Assembly (NCBI RefSeq): GCF_030161095.1
Contig: NZ_BSPP01000007.1
Span: 124,001-188,000, forward strand
Length of the DNA stretch: 64,000 bases
DNA from: Cypionkella aquatica
GTDB taxonomy: Bacteria; Pseudomonadota; Alphaproteobacteria; Rhodobacterales; Rhodobacteraceae
Direction of reading: 5' to 3'
The translations under genes were made by a program, and so were the position numbers. This document shows, piece by piece, positions 57,376 to 64,000 of this stretch (position 1 is its first letter; every line of letters starts with the position of its first letter). The notes below the pieces were generated by a model. That model made no database searches and was not told the DNA's origin. It worked only from the letters and a program-made list of their open reading frames with translations.

Positions 57376-58263
57376 TCACGCCAGATTGGCGCGGAAGAAC
57401 GCCAAAGTCCGATCCCAAGCCAACTCGGCTGCAGCCTCATCATAGCGCGGTGTCGAATCATTGTGAAAACCATGGTTGACGCCGTCATAGATGAACGCCT
57501 CATACTTGGTCCCCGCCGCCTTCAGCGCGGACTCATAGGCAGGCCAGCCTTCATTCACCCGTGTGTCCAGCGCCGCATAATGCAGCAATAACGGGCATTT
57601 GATCTTGGCCACATCCTCGGATTTCGGCTGCATCCCGTAGAACGGCACCGCCCCGCCCAGCTCTGGATAGGCCACCGCCGCCGCGTTCGACACCCCGCCG
57701 CCATAGCAAAACCCGGTGATGCCAACGCGCCCGGTAGAGCCCTCATGCGCCATCATCCACTCAATCGCGGCAAAGAAATCGTTCATCAGCTTGGCAGGAT
57801 CAACCTTGGCCTGCAGCGCTTTGCCTTCCTCGTCATTACCCGGATAGCCGCCCTGACTGGTCAGCCCGTCCGGGGCCAAAGCCAGAAACCCGGCCTTTGC
57901 CAAACGCCGCGCCACATCCTCGATATAGGGGTTCAGCCCACGGTTTTCATGCACCACCACCACAGCGGGCAGCTTGGCCGCAGCCCCCGCAGGCTTGACC
58001 AGATAGCCGCGAACGTCGCCATTGCCATTGGGCGAGGGATAGGTGACGTAGTCGGCCAAAATCTCAGGATCATTAAAGCTGACCTGCTCGGCAAAGGCAT
58101 AATTCGGCGACATCACCCCCATCAGCGCCGCCGCCGTCAGCCCGCCCACGGTAAACTTGGCAGCCCTGTCCAAAAACTCGCGCTTCGAGATCTGGCCATG
58201 CGCATAGAAATCATAAAGCTCCAGCAGTTGTGGGCTGAAATCCTTTGCCGTCATCCGGGTCAT
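57376..58263 (-). CDS. Dienelactone-hydrolase-family protein with export-like N-terminus
   Basis: This 295-aa alpha/beta hydrolase is of the dienelactone hydrolase family. It has the nucleophile Cys in [14 protein letters not shown], the Asp in [15 protein letters not shown] and the His in [37 protein letters not shown] is the oxyanion-hole region. The N-terminus ([25 protein letters not shown], ending YAFAE) looks like a twin-arginine-type signal with Lys-Arg in place of Arg-Arg, so it may be periplasmic. I chose the ATG at 58263 with ggag upstream; 58275 is possible. The substrate is unknown. Confidence 0.88.
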
Positions 58264-58378
58264 CGCGCTCTCCATCCTTGTGAAGGCTAAAAGCTAATTC
58301 AGAGTGAACGCACGCCAACTCACGCTTGCGTGACCGCAGCACAGATCAGCCATCTCTCGCCAATTTAGCTAAAATTTG

Positions 58379-59546: not shown

Positions 59547-60628
59547 GCGATACTGAACACATGGCCCATGCCCTGCGCATCGCTGCGCGGGGCTTGGGTC
59601 GCACTTGGCCCAATCCGGCGGTCGGCTGTGTGATCGTCAAGGCAGGCGTGATCGTCGGGCGCGGCTGGACGCAACCCGGCGGGCGTCCGCATGCCGAGGT
59701 GATGGCGCTGGCCCAAGCCGGGGCCAATGCGCAGGGCGCGACGGCCTATGTCACGCTGGAACCCTGCGCCCATCATGGCAAAACCGGTCCTTGTGCTTTG
59801 GCTTTGGTGGCGGCAGGCGTGGCCCGGGTGGTCTCGGCGCTGCAAGATCCGGACCCGCGCGTCAGCGGTCAGGGTCATGCGATCCTGCGCGGGGCGGGGG
59901 TCGAAGTCATTGAAAATGTTATGCACGCCGAAGCCATCCGCGCCAATGCGGGCTTTCTGAAGCGCGTGCGCGCAGGTCTGCCCTTTGTCACGCTGAAACT
60001 CGCCACCACGCTGGATGGCCGGATCGCCACCGCCAGCGGCGAATCGCGTTGGATCACCGGGGCCAGCGCACGCCGCGCCACCCATGCGATGCGGTTGAAC
60101 CATGATGCGGTGATGATCGGCTCAGGCACCGCGCGCGCCGATGACCCCGATCTGACGGTGCGTGATCTGGGGGCGGGCCACCAACCGCTGCGCATCGTGA
60201 TGGACACCCATCTCTCACACAACCCCGACAGCCGCTTGGGGCGCAGTGCCAAAACCCATCCGATATGGCTGATCCATGGCCCCGATGCCCCGGCGCAGGC
60301 CCGCGACGCATGGGCAGGGCAGGGCGCGATCCTTCTGGAATCGGCCTGCGAAAACAATCACCTAGATCCGCGCGCTGCGCTGCAGAGGCTTGCCGCGCAA
60401 GGCCTGACCCGGATTTTCTGCGAAGGTGGCGGCACTTTGGCGGCCAGCCTGATCCGCGCCAAACTGGTCGATGATCTGGCATTGTTCACAGCTGGCGCGC
60501 TGATCGGTGCTGACGGTCAGGCCAGTCTTGCCGCCCTGAACCTTGCCGCCCTGAAAGACGCCCCGCGCCTGACCCTGCGCGAGACCAAAATCTTTGGACC
60601 AGACGCCTACAGTCTTTGGTCTGTGTAA
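59543..60628 (+). CDS. ribD: Bifunctional riboflavin biosynthesis deaminase/reductase
   Basis: This enzyme performs the second and third steps of riboflavin synthesis. The 361-aa product has an N-terminal cytidine-deaminase-like domain with zinc ligands in [11 protein letters not shown] and [14 protein letters not shown], and a C-terminal reductase domain ([25 protein letters not shown] and [23 protein letters not shown]). It starts at GTG overlapping the nrdR stop. A repeat copy begins just after its stop. Other rib genes are not in the window. Confidence 0.96.
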
Positions 60629-60629
60629 A

Positions 60630-60661
60630 TTCACACTGGTCTCAATATCCCCGCCAGAGGC
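60630..60661 (-). repeat. Dispersed intergenic repeat, cggggatattt family, minus orientation
   Basis: On the minus strand it reads cctctggcggggatattg and then agaccagtgtgaa, matching both the core and the ccaatgtgaaa tail of other copies. It starts one base after the ribD stop and lies between convergent ribD and the glyoxalase gene. Confidence 0.7.
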
Positions 60662-60706
60662 GCAGATATAAACCCGCGCCCCCATCCGAGGTTTATCGCC
60701 CGGATC

Positions 60707-61135
60707 TTACCAGCTGCCGGTGTTGCCCATGCTCGCCCAAGGCTCGGCAGGCGCCAGCGCAGCGCCCTTTTGCAAAATCTCGATCGAGATATTGTCGGGT
60801 GAACGTACAAACGCCATATGGCCATCGCGCGGCGGCCGGTTGATCAGCACGCCCTTGGCCTGCAACGCGGCGCAGGTGGCGTAAATATCATCAACCTCAT
60901 AGGCCAGATGCCCGAAATGCCGCGAATCCGATGGCAGACCGGTATCGCCATCCCAGTTATAGGTCAGCTCAACCGGACATTCCGGCTGCCCCGGAGGTGC
61001 CAGAAAGATCAGCGAAAACCGCCCCTTATCATTGTCGATCCGCCGCGTTTCCTCTAGCCCCAGCAGCTTGTAGAACGCCAAAGAGGCGTCCAGATCCAGC
61101 ACCCGGACCATGGTGTGCAAATACCGAATTGTCAT
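60707..61135 (-). CDS. gloA: Lactoylglutathione lyase (glyoxalase I, VOC family)
   Basis: This enzyme isomerises the methylglyoxal-glutathione hemithioacetal to S-lactoylglutathione (cytosol). The 142-aa product has two VOC modules with the metal ligands His in RYLHTMVRV, Glu in CPVELTYNW, His in HFGHLAYEVDD and Glu in ISIEILQKG, all as in GloA. It is the normal length with a short C-terminal tail. It is convergent with ribD and preceded by agga on the minus strand. Confidence 0.93.
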   Translation of the reverse strand: MTIRYLHTMVRVLDLDASLAFYKLLGLEETRRIDNDKGRFSLIFLAPPGQPECPVELTYNWDGDTGLPSDSRHFGHLAYEVDDIYATCAALQAKGVLINRPPRDGHMAFVRSPDNISIEILQKGAALAPAEPWASMGNTGSW

Positions 61136-61203
61136 CGCAGTCTCCTTTTTCCTGCTGGCGAACTTAGCAGGCGATTGCGAAAAGGCGAGGGGGCGCGGTC
61201 ACT

Positions 61204-62595
61204 TCAGAACGATGAGCGGATGCCGACAGACAAGCCCAAATTCATCGAATCGCGGATCACCAAATCGGAAACAGAGCGCGTTGCCGACACGGTGGCGGTG
61301 GGGCGAAAGCCCAAAAGCGACATATTGCTAAAGCTGGCCGTGGCCCCGGCCTCAAGCACCAGATCAGGGTTATCCAATTGGGCCTTCCAGTAATCCTTGG
61401 CCTCGACCGATGCGAAAAACTGCAGATCCAGACCTTGCACTAAGTCGGCTGGCTGTGCCTCTAGCCCAAGGGAAATTCCGCGATAAGGCAGCCCCGGCGC
61501 TGCGGCATCCAACTGCGAAAGCCCGATAATTCCCGTCAGCCGCCCTTTGCCCAGTGCCATGCCCAAAGAGGCCTCTGCCGCCAGCCGGACCGAATTGTTG
61601 CGCGGTGTCGCAGGCGATTGCACCGCCTCGGCGGTCAGATCCAACCGCGCTACTTGCTGCGGCGAGATCAGTTTTGCCAGCCCGAATTGCAGGCGCTGCA
61701 CCTCGCTTTGCCGCCCAAAGCTATACCATTGCCGCCCAACCTGCGCCGCATAGGTCAGTCCAAGCGTTTGCGAGGTCCGCACTTGCCCAGAGATGCCAAG
61801 ATCGAGGCCATTGTTCGAGTAATCCGACGCATTCGCCAAGGGTTGCAGCTTGCGGGCTTTGTGCGACAGCCAAACTTCACGCCGCCGCAGTTTGACAAAG
61901 CCATTGACGGTGGATGTCGCATTGTTCTGCAATCGGTAGGACAAAGTGCCAGCGGCGACGGCTGTATAACCCGGCAAGGCCTGCTCAATTGGGATCGGGA
62001 TGCCGTAGAAATCAAATGACTCGTGCAGACTGCCGCCGTTGACGTTGTTGCTTGGCCCGGCAGCCAGACTCACGCTGAATTTCAGCGGCATGCGCTGCTC
62101 CAATGTCGCGAAGCCGCGCCGCAGCAAGTCCATGTCCGTTGGGGCTGTCCGGTAGCTGTCGGCCCGGCGCAACCACCATTTCGCGGCAATAAGGCGATCC
62201 TGCGATGCCAACGCCTCGGCGGTCAGAAATGCGGCCTGAAATTTCCACGGCCGATCTTTGGTGGCACGGAACGCGCGCTTGCCCGTGGTTTCTGCAAGGG
62301 CAGTTTGGCCCGACCGCGACAGTGCCGCTGCCAGCAGCACCTGCGCTTCGATATCATTCGGATTGGCCGCCAACACTTGCCGCGCAATACGCACCGCAAG
62401 TTCTGGATTGCCGCGCGAGATTGCCTGCGCCACCAGCACCCGTGCAGCCCGTGGCGTCACTTGCATGGTCACATCACCGCCCGGCTCCGCTTTGGCACCT
62501 TCGCCAAGCCACGCGCCCAGCAAGGCAATCCAAACCGCGCCGACCCAAGCAGCCCTTCGTGGCCACATGGTCAAGGCACGACTCGTCAGGGACAC
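61204..62595 (-). CDS. Slam-like outer-membrane protein (TPR plus beta-barrel)
   Basis: This 463-aa protein has a Sec signal (hydrophobic AAWVGAVWIALLGAWL, ending AKAE). A helical TPR-like domain covers about residues 45-165 (AVRIARQVLAANPNDIEAQVLLAAALSRSG). From FSVSLAAGPSNNVNGGS onward come alternating beta-strand segments to a C-terminal Phe, typical of an outer-membrane barrel. This order matches the surface lipoprotein assembly modifier (Slam) family, which helps move lipoproteins to the cell surface. The GTG at 62595 overlaps the lipoprotein gene by 10 nt; the ATG at 62568 is an alternative. The family call is by architecture. Confidence 0.78.
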   Translation of the reverse strand: MSLTSRALTMWPRRAAWVGAVWIALLGAWLGEGAKAEPGGDVTMQVTPRAARVLVAQAISRGNPELAVRIARQVLAANPNDIEAQVLLAAALSRSGQTALAETTGKRAFRATKDRPWKFQAAFLTAEALASQDRLIAAKWWLRRADSYRTAPTDMDLLRRGFATLEQRMPLKFSVSLAAGPSNNVNGGSLHESFDFYGIPIPIEQALPGYTAVAAGTLSYRLQNNATSTVNGFVKLRRREVWLSHKARKLQPLANASDYSNNGLDLGISGQVRTSQTLGLTYAAQVGRQWYSFGRQSEVQRLQFGLAKLISPQQVARLDLTAEAVQSPATPRNNSVRLAAEASLGMALGKGRLTGIIGLSQLDAAAPGLPYRGISLGLEAQPADLVQGLDLQFFASVEAKDYWKAQLDNPDLVLEAGATASFSNMSLLGFRPTATVSATRSVSDLVIRDSMNLGLSVGIRSSF

Positions 62596-63533
62596 GCCGG
62601 CCCACCAACCAGTTCGCAGTTTGATGACACGAACAGCCCGTGTTCCATCGCCTCGGCACTATCGCTTATCGGCTGGAATACCAGAAGCATCGCAATTTCT
62701 GACGCATCAGTGCCCGAGAACGTGCCCGCATAGCTGCCGGAATCCGAAAGCGTGCCTTGCAGCGTATCGGGGTCAACGTCCAACCGCTGGGTTCTGCCAT
62801 TAAAGTTACCAGCCGAGTCGATCAGATTTGACTCGAACAGGAACTGTGTCGCCAAGGCTGTATTGGTATCGACGATCCGGCGTTGATCAACACCCCCCGA
62901 AACCGTCATTTCGTTGAAATCCGCGGTGACCAGCATGCGGCCCGTGGTGCGATAGGACCGTACCGGGTCAAGGTCGCCGCCCGGCCCCGATCCTGGGTTT
63001 TGCCCAAAGTTCAAAAGCCCGGCATAAGTGCCAGAATAATTGAACTTGTTCTGCGCCCCGACATCGCCCACCGGCACCGTAAACACATCCGCGCGCGAGA
63101 AAATGCCGCCACCGTGATAATTGGCAAACTGCCCAGCCTCGACGGCAATCAAACCTCTTGCATCGCCCGCAGTGGCAACCAGTGCCACAACATAGCGGTT
63201 CGAGGTGGTTTCCTGATAGGTATAGGCTTGATAGCCGCCAACATCAAAAGCCGCGTTGCGCTGGTAAGTCGCGCGCAAAGCCGCCGCATCTTGCGCGCTC
63301 ATTTGCACATTGATCGTCGCATCGCCCGGCGCATAAGTCGAAAGGCTGGCCGACTGCATGTTCTTTTTCACCGAGGCTGGCACGATAACGCCGGTGCCCG
63401 GATCTGGCGTATCAACGGGAACCTCTGGATCAACAGGTGGATCAACAGGCACTTCGGGATCGGCCAAAAACGGATTTCCACCACAAGCAGCCAAGGTCAG
63501 CGCGGCCGCCAACAGGATAAAATACGGTTTCAT
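62586..63533 (-). CDS. TbpB-like surface lipoprotein candidate
   Basis: This 315-aa lipoprotein has a signal peptide with lipobox LAAC (Cys17), followed by GGNPF. A Pro/Asp/Val linker of tandem PEVPVDP-type repeats covers about residues 25-48. The C-terminal part carries a glycine-rich beta-barrel-like pattern (NYSGTYAGLLNF, TADFNEMTVSGGV, GSYAGTFSGTDASEIAMLLVF), resembling the barrel domains of transferrin-binding-protein-B-like lipoproteins. Two Cys close to the end (SSNCELVGGPACP) could form a disulfide. It is directly upstream of the Slam-like gene, which fits a client-secretor pair. The ligand is unknown. The ATG at 63533 has agggtgg upstream. Confidence 0.78.
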   Translation of the reverse strand: MKPYFILLAAALTLAACGGNPFLADPEVPVDPPVDPEVPVDTPDPGTGVIVPASVKKNMQSASLSTYAPGDATINVQMSAQDAAALRATYQRNAAFDVGGYQAYTYQETTSNRYVVALVATAGDARGLIAVEAGQFANYHGGGIFSRADVFTVPVGDVGAQNKFNYSGTYAGLLNFGQNPGSGPGGDLDPVRSYRTTGRMLVTADFNEMTVSGGVDQRRIVDTNTALATQFLFESNLIDSAGNFNGRTQRLDVDPDTLQGTLSDSGSYAGTFSGTDASEIAMLLVFQPISDSAEAMEHGLFVSSNCELVGGPACP

Positions 63534-63698
63534 ATGCTGGACCACCCTAAGTAAAATCACATCAACTTTGCGTGCAAAACCCTTGAAAGTCAAAGCGGAT
63601 TCGTTTTCCTGCTTTGATCTTTCAGCCCTGTGTTCGCCTCGCATCACCCCCATTTGGGGCAAGCGCACAGCTTCGGCCTTGGCGCGGCAGGGTGAACC

Positions 63699-63744
63699 TG
63701 TCTATATGTAGACAATCAAATCAGGGCGCCGACAATGGGTTGTC
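63699..63744. promoter_or_regulatory. Two inverted repeats upstream of thyA
   Basis: TGTCTA (63699-63704) pairs with TAGACA (63709-63714), and GACAA (63731-63735) pairs with TTGTC (63740-63744). They lie in the 255-nt divergent gap between the lipoprotein gene and thyA. They could be operators; no regulator is suggested. Confidence 0.35.
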
Positions 63745-63788
63745 ATCGGTGGCGCAAATCCTGAATTTTCAGCTGGCGGAGCCCCGAC

Positions 63789-64000
63789 GTGCAGACCTAC
63801 CTTGACGCATTGCGCACCGTGCTGGCCGAGGGCCAGAGCTCGACCGATCGCACCGGCACGGGCACGATTTCGCATTTTGGCCTGCAAAGCCGCTATGATC
63901 TGTCGATGGGTTTTCCCTTGGTCACCACCAAGAAACTGCATCTGAAATCCATCATCCACGAGCTTCTTTGGTTCCTGAACGGCGACACAAATATCGGCTA
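63789..64000 (+). CDS. thyA: Thymidylate synthase (3'-truncated by window edge)
   Basis: This enzyme methylates dUMP to dTMP with methylene-tetrahydrofolate. The visible 70 residues read [15 protein letters not shown], then the ThyA signature region [14 protein letters not shown] (conserved Arg in SSTDRTGTG), [29 protein letters not shown], all diagnostic. The catalytic Cys lies beyond the right edge. The start is a GTG at 63789 with ggag 8 nt upstream; no ATG is available. Confidence 0.95.

Follow-up and report, generated by a model that had tools for sequence, protein, structure and literature searches.

A predicted Slam/T11SS lipoprotein-exporter pair in Cypionkella aquatica and its apparent exchange as a unit at the thyA/thyX-gloA site

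What brings together a gene for a lipoprotein and a gene for a TPR-plus-barrel protein, overlapping each other beside genes for thymidylate synthase and lactoylglutathione lyase, in an alphaproteobacterium such as Cypionkella aquatica, and how firmly are they tied to that place in the genome? The 64,000-nt stretch of contig NZ_BSPP01000007.1 that was analysed (the window) carries such a pair on its minus strand, and we will refer to the two products as “client” and “exporter”. In characterised Slams, the lipoprotein undergoes Sec export, lipidation and delivery to the outer membrane, is captured by the TPR domain of its exporter, passes the membrane with the aid of the barrel and is displayed on its lipid anchor. 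The two overlapping genes of the window most likely code for a comparable system, i.e., a surface-anchored lipoprotein and the outer-membrane channel displaying it. More broadly, we give a probability of roughly 0.87 to the reading that they form a self-contained Slam/T11SS surface-display module, usually found at a thyA/thyX-gloA site and gained, lost and exchanged as a unit. The direct evidence for this module consists of its genes, their homology, their linkage, their shared presence or absence and their co-divergence.

The overlapping gene pair of the window

The client gene (62586..63533, minus strand, by ORF call) lies where an earlier note on this DNA had announced a lipoprotein ORF with a LAAC lipobox, and codes for 315 residues comprising this lipobox, a Pro/Val/Asp linker and a C-terminal barrel region of the TbpB/LbpB/fHbp type. 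The N-terminus reads MKPYFILLAAALTLAAC, followed by GGNPF and then by the linker PEVPVDPPVDPEVPVDT; the lipid-bearing residue is Cys17, with which the mature client begins (C-GGNPF), and it is invariant in 37/37 aligned clients, the rows of which had been chosen by their lipobox. Two further features of the client sequence can be mentioned. Residues 18-22 (window 63468-63482, minus strand) contain NP followed by one of F, W, L, I or V, a motif found no more than 12 residues past the lipid Cys in 23/37 clients (a count that has no background of other lipoproteins) and that may act as a sorting or exporter signal. Near the C-terminus, two Cys (residues 306 and 314; window 62592-62618, minus strand) are nearly invariant among the closest relatives of the window client and absent from most other aligned clients, and represent a possible disulfide.

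The exporter gene (61204..62595, minus strand; GTG start at 62595, ATG alternative at 62568) begins within the client gene, the client stop and the exporter GTG overlapping by 10 nt. Its 463-residue product has a signal-like start and TPRs and ends in RSSF, which bears out the description of a TPR-plus-barrel ORF that overlaps the lipoprotein stop and finishes in Phe. TPR_19 is recognised in the single sequence at 27.4 bits (Pfam cut-off, 25), and the TPR domain is predicted to be periplasmic. The barrel entry shows GPSNNVNGGS, the window version of a PSSNVNNGS-like block of the family, and a crude count gives 13 amphipathic 10-mers, a number reached in 16/1000 shuffles. The aromatic end of the barrel is a trait of the family: Phe closes it in 44/47 loci and Tyr in 1/47, the other two being a contig-cut barrel and one with an internal stop. 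G005, the nearest relative, has kept both genes (83% identity for the client, 67% for the exporter), which thus amount to more than a chance pair of ORFs.

Taken singly, neither protein declares its kind to profile searches. SlipAM does not match the window exporter alone, whose other matches are to generic TPR families, together with sub-threshold PEP-CTERM PrsT and T3SS SctY; the client alone does not reach the cut-offs of TbpB_B_D or FHBP_C (sub-threshold values, 0.041 for FHBP_C and 0.0016 for NF041636 slam_lipo), and a single-sequence search of solved structures with the window proteins returned nothing useful. Such generic exporter matches would also suit some other TPR-plus-barrel outer-membrane protein, e.g., a polysaccharide exporter of the PgaA kind, with the lipoprotein as its periplasmic partner; in fact, PgaA proteins had to leave a published DUF560 set (PMC8406197).

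Assignment to the Slam/T11SS kind through relatives

A search of 147 related genomes gave a barrel match in 48 and a client match in 20; client and barrel adjoin on one contig in 19/20 client-matching genomes, and in the other one (G012) the contig ends beside the client. One barrel genome (G127, E 4e-4) was dropped, leaving 47 loci, from which 42 barrels were aligned (G074 and G064, with over-long frames, G052, with an internal stop, the contig-cut G046 and the short G007 were left out) along with 37 of the 39 called clients (G052 and G004 left out, no start found). SlipAM matches 28/42 aligned barrels at E≤0.01 (best, 1.9e-10), TPR_Slam matches one of the 42, and a separate SlipAM search placed several of the loci found with the window barrel above the curated cut-off of that profile. 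Compared by hhalign with ten T11SS proteins, the barrel family aligns at 100% and E 2.6e-49 over 411 columns, TPR and barrel both being covered; these ten were drawn from twelve proteins of SlipAM-passing loci, L054 and L059 being discarded for a wrong-strand frame and one start being trimmed. On the side of structures, the best 60 of 136 PDB matches of the barrel profile are TPR or similar helical proteins only, at positions 1-139. Among the 37 clients, slam_lipo matches 15, TbpB_B_D 5 and FHBP_C 4 at E≤0.01, and the client-family profile finds LbpB (lactoferrin-binding protein B) as its best PDB match (E 6.8e-5), with several fHbp chains following weakly (0.07 to 0.7).

At family level, the proposal of a Slam exporter with a surface lipoprotein is supported by these SlipAM, hhalign and LbpB matches. 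The exporter shares with Slams the DUF560 (SlipAM) barrel homology, seen through the family, the N-terminal TPR domain (TPR_19), the adjoining lipoprotein client (in the window and in 45/47 barrel loci) and the aromatic C-terminal end; the client, for its part, has the lipobox signal peptide (LAAC) and, at family level, a C-terminal barrel of the TbpB_B_D/fHbp type that its own sequence reaches only below threshold. The expectation that profiles would place both proteins with Slam (DUF560) and TbpB therefore failed on the single sequences and held only through relatives. Likewise, “TbpB-like” is apt for the C-terminal barrel region and for nothing beyond it, since TbpB proper has two lobes and a TbpA (TonB) partner and the client has one such region in its 315 residues. 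The full-length profile match to T11SS proteins, the presence of SlipAM in 28/42 barrels and the LbpB/fHbp-type lipoprotein adjoining the barrel all argue against an exporter of the PgaA kind, which we hold to be very improbable. As judged from sequence, the window pair is a divergent Slam/T11SS pair of a published locus type, and a Pfam-based set would miss its barrel because the latter has no SlipAM match.

For the surface-display module, we infer the transport steps and the surface location from characterised Slams. By that analogy, the client would be exported by Sec, lipidated at Cys17 and delivered to the outer membrane; the periplasmic TPR domain of the exporter would hold it, and the C-terminal barrel would move it across the outer membrane, with the client's own C-terminal barrel domain as the putative handle recognised by the exporter. 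The client would finally sit on the cell surface by its lipid, its N-terminal part pointing outward for the putative binding of a ligand, at which we can only guess.

Slams have been described in all clades of the Proteobacteria, free-living species included (Hooda 2017, PMC5449769), and the present locus type was described in Rhodobacteraceae in 2025 (PMC12282271); the idea that such a pair is unexpected in a non-pathogenic alphaproteobacterium finds no support. The Neisseria systems, Slam1 and Slam2 with TbpB, LbpB, HpuA and fHbp, also combine TPRs and a DUF560-type barrel with a neighbouring lipoprotein, the C-terminal barrel region of which is, in the window, related to LbpB/fHbp; on the other hand, the window has one small client and no adjoining TonB receptor. 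No host transferrin or factor H would be expected as ligand of the window client. Xenorhabdus NilB/NilC is likewise described as an exporter-lipoprotein gene pair (PMC5449769), although a host-colonisation role is known for that one.

The thyA/thyX-gloA site

Downstream of the exporter, at 68 nt, follows a gloA-like lactoylglutathione lyase gene (60707..61135, minus strand; TIGR00068, E 4.8e-26, below the cut-off of the model), and the start of thyA (thymidylate synthase; 63789..64000, plus strand; PF00303, E 2e-25) diverges from the client, its start codon being probably GTG and the rest of the gene lying beyond the window. At a distance of a few genes, a YghX family hydrolase is encoded (57376-58275, minus strand; 556 bits, cut-off 460). 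The gloA gene marks one border of a conserved site and thyA the other; gloA itself is probably outside the export mechanism.

The same arrangement recurs in the relatives. By HMM, a same-strand client accompanies 45/47 barrels, a count that is partly circular because the 37 aligned clients are among the 45; the HMM recovers a client in six of the eight loci that had none by the first rule, and the client profile finds none in G074 and G075. The gap between client and barrel, for starts chosen by our own rule, has a median of 5 nt and is ≤20 nt in 36/39 measured loci, 14 of them overlaps. A same-strand gloA lies downstream in 43/47 barrel loci, within 350 nt in 41 of those 43, and three of the 47 barrels (G051, G086, G029) sit elsewhere in the genome, away from gloA.

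A survey anchored on gloA covered 44 loci of the bacterial family; in 40 of these, the genome has gloA and gives no window-barrel match. Upstream DNA was too little in G013, and 38 of the remaining 39 have neither client nor barrel beside gloA, a “no pair” class that rests on profiles of our own families and could therefore hide pairs of a strongly deviating sequence. The other one (G081) has a shortened barrel only, lacking TPR domain and client, seemingly either the residue of a deletion or a form consisting of the barrel alone; it reads between thyX and gloA (L128, 2684-3730) with an in-frame signal-like start. Neither gene was found at 11 gloA loci from other families of the class. Of 35 scannable loci among the 44, the divergent ORF of at least 200 residues near gloA is Thy1 (ThyX) in 25 and ThyA in 3, i.e., a thymidylate synthase remains beside gloA at pair-less loci (28/35 divergent neighbours). 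The survey therefore describes the site as thyA/thyX - [client - exporter] - gloA, where client and exporter either occur together or are both missing.

This locus type has been published as “cluster 3” of the T11SS loci in Roseobacteraceae/Rhodobacteraceae, with thymidylate synthase, T11SS and glyoxalase (Grossman 2025, PMC12282271), where DUF1194 was counted in 102 of 145 loci, glyoxalase in 89, thymidylate synthase in 77 and TbpBBD in 8. The window thus adds a member rather than a new kind. It resembles cluster 3, as described there, in its thymidylate synthase, T11SS barrel and glyoxalase, in a lipoprotein of the 282-375-residue type with a C-terminal barrel, and in the rarity of TonB receptors; it differs in that thyA takes the place of thyX, in lacking DUF1194 genome-wide and in a barrel without SlipAM match, and it was placed beside cluster 3 by locus content.

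The near-constant company of gloA, together with the published frequencies of glyoxalase (89/145) and DUF1194 (102/145), invites the proposal that the module serves a pathway of gloA, DUF1194 and thymidylate synthase, be it in the detoxification of aldehydes or in nickel or one-carbon metabolism, a possibility that PMC12282271 discusses. Against it, gloA loci with the pair do not have DUF1194 more often (21/42) than those without it (24/41; Fisher p 0.51). This table takes a DUF1194 more than 800 nt from gloA as absent, and other cut-offs give p 0.38 to 0.83; without the genus of the window, the comparison is 21/32 vs 24/38 (p 1.0). It leaves out G033 and G013, which lack room downstream and upstream, respectively, G046, where the contig breaks, and G081 with its barrel remnant; with G013 counted, the pair-less figure becomes 24/42 (p 0.66). 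DUF1194 finds no match in the window genome or in 14/15 genomes of its genus (G006 has a weak one), and this absence, with the equal frequency at both kinds of loci, rules it out as a necessary partner. The published association of DUF1194 with gloA looks positional and need not reflect function, since it is about equally common where the pair is missing. As thymidylate synthase also keeps its place at pair-less loci (28/35) and the pair changes independently of gloA (see below), a service to this pathway appears improbable.

That no TonB receptor adjoins the pair, as remarked in the earlier note, holds for the whole contig: PF00593 has no match there, its three matches in the genome being on another contig, which rules out an uptake of iron or heme through a neighbouring TonB receptor. 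Given this absence and the strong variability of the pair, we consider that the client more likely binds something at the surface, or serves as a decoy, than takes part in iron uptake.

Apparent movement of the client-exporter pair INDEPENDENTLY of its neighbour gloA

Client and exporter diverge together, independently of gloA. Within the genus of the window, the gloA genes of G009, G006 and G001 are 88-92% identical to that of the window and their clients and barrels only 26-30%, whereas G005, with a similar gloA (91%), retains the 83% and 67% given above. Over 32 of 35 loci (three lacked gloA in the stretch), client distances follow barrel distances with rho 0.52 (partial, 0.51 given gloA; reached by 0/999 Mantel permutations), as against 0.08 for client vs gloA and 0.17 for barrel vs gloA. 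Clients were also labelled by us as type A (similar to the window client) or B, with G001 and G006 put in type B for a match to the window client that comes largely from the first residues; on 34 rows, the type changes 2 times on the barrel tree vs 13 times on the gloA tree, with no advantage over shuffled labels (mean, 11.3) in the latter case. Branch support in the gloA tree is poor (7/40 inner branches starred, 22/40 open), and its starred branches alone force 4 changes of client type.

Trees and distances suggest exchange between species of a linked client-exporter pair. Nonetheless, the types could be old paralogues with differential loss, or products of very fast divergence in place; many client or barrel pairs stand at only 25-30% identity, few branches of the gloA tree are starred (7/40), and some genomes (e.g., G016, G066, G056) have, by SlipAM, a second and more typical T11SS protein. 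These points have to be set against the finding that no genome has more than one window-barrel match at E≤0.001 (48 of 147 genomes have one), the rejection of same-genus barrels as one clade (p-AU 6.6e-12, 9 rows) where same-genus gloA is not rejected (p-AU 0.39, 10 rows), the starred branches that place some same-genus barrels with those of another genus (G001 and G009 beside G048, G004 beside G042), and the 4 type changes forced by starred gloA branches. Paralogy or in-place divergence is thus, in our judgement, unlikely, and exchange of the linked pair remains the preferred reading. The window barrel itself is separated by a long branch from the remaining barrels of type A, a single type A clade not being rejected (p-AU 0.149).

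The DNA before the client gene suggests where the exchanged segment may end. A promoter-like 37-bp element, TTTGACTTTCAAGGGTTTTGCACGCAAAGTTGATGTG (63558..63594, minus strand), precedes the client gene without a single difference in five genomes of the window's genus (G000, G005, G001, G006 and G009), which carry two client types, and the window genome has no other copy with up to 3 mismatches allowed. The signal peptides of the type B clients of G001 and G006 resemble that of the window client. This shared element and the window-like signal peptides suggest that the exchange border may lie inside the start of the client gene. Among the relatives, TTGAC stands upstream of the called client start, at a distance of 57-81 nt, in 29/39 loci (counted by eye), and TTGACTTTC occurs within 300 nt before the client in 16/39 loci vs 0.054 per kb over all loci. 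A sigma-70 consensus scan of the coding strand upstream of the client was negative, terminator-like sites are fewer than in shuffles, and a known structured RNA in 60500-64000 was discarded, none reaching the Rfam gathering score.

The site could be a variable surface locus, at which complete modules, with each exporter matched to its own client, pass from genus to genus while the promoter is kept. Attack on the cell surface, e.g., by phages or protists, and not nutrient uptake, would be the selective force; we propose this tentatively, at somewhat less than even odds. It would include at least two same-genus cases in which the client keeps its signal peptide while mature client and exporter change.

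Spread of the window pair by plasmids was considered and set aside: tblastn found one relative per protein, both on the same Pseudorhodobacter turbinis replicon, at 31-35% identity. This related pair lies at 445223-447995 of NZ_CP039965.1 (a 1.58-Mb replicon in the plasmid collection), with an adjoining gloA match. A DNA search of 60000-64000 in plasmids gave 47 records, each with less than 80% coverage of the query; the 20 plasmid records listed match over the gloA portion, and two of them match at the thyA end as well. A client scan of a species-genome collection, which finds close relatives only, gave one locus.

Besides the exchange, the family bears on a question of the 2025 survey, namely whether marine T11SS seldom have a cargo, have one below threshold or have lost it; in that work, cargo is rare in cluster 3 (0.21 per exporter), with a syntenic locus carrying a cargo lipoprotein in 10/11 strains (PMC12282271). 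In the loci covered here, cargo is nearly always present and mostly below profile thresholds, an addition to that survey with which the second of its three options fits. No mention of module exchange at the thyA/thyX-gloA site was found in the literature as far as it could be searched, most subscription journals lying outside the search. The novelty is thus modest, and consists of the linked client-exporter exchange and an explanation for the apparent lack of cargo.

For these bacteria, the analysis means that the pair of a Pseudorhodobacter relative can be assigned to the Slam kind even though single-sequence profiles miss it. Related bacteria seem to acquire, discard and exchange the pair as a whole at a constant position of the genome, and the naturally swapped pairs at this one site offer matched and mismatched combinations for testing the specificity between exporter and client.
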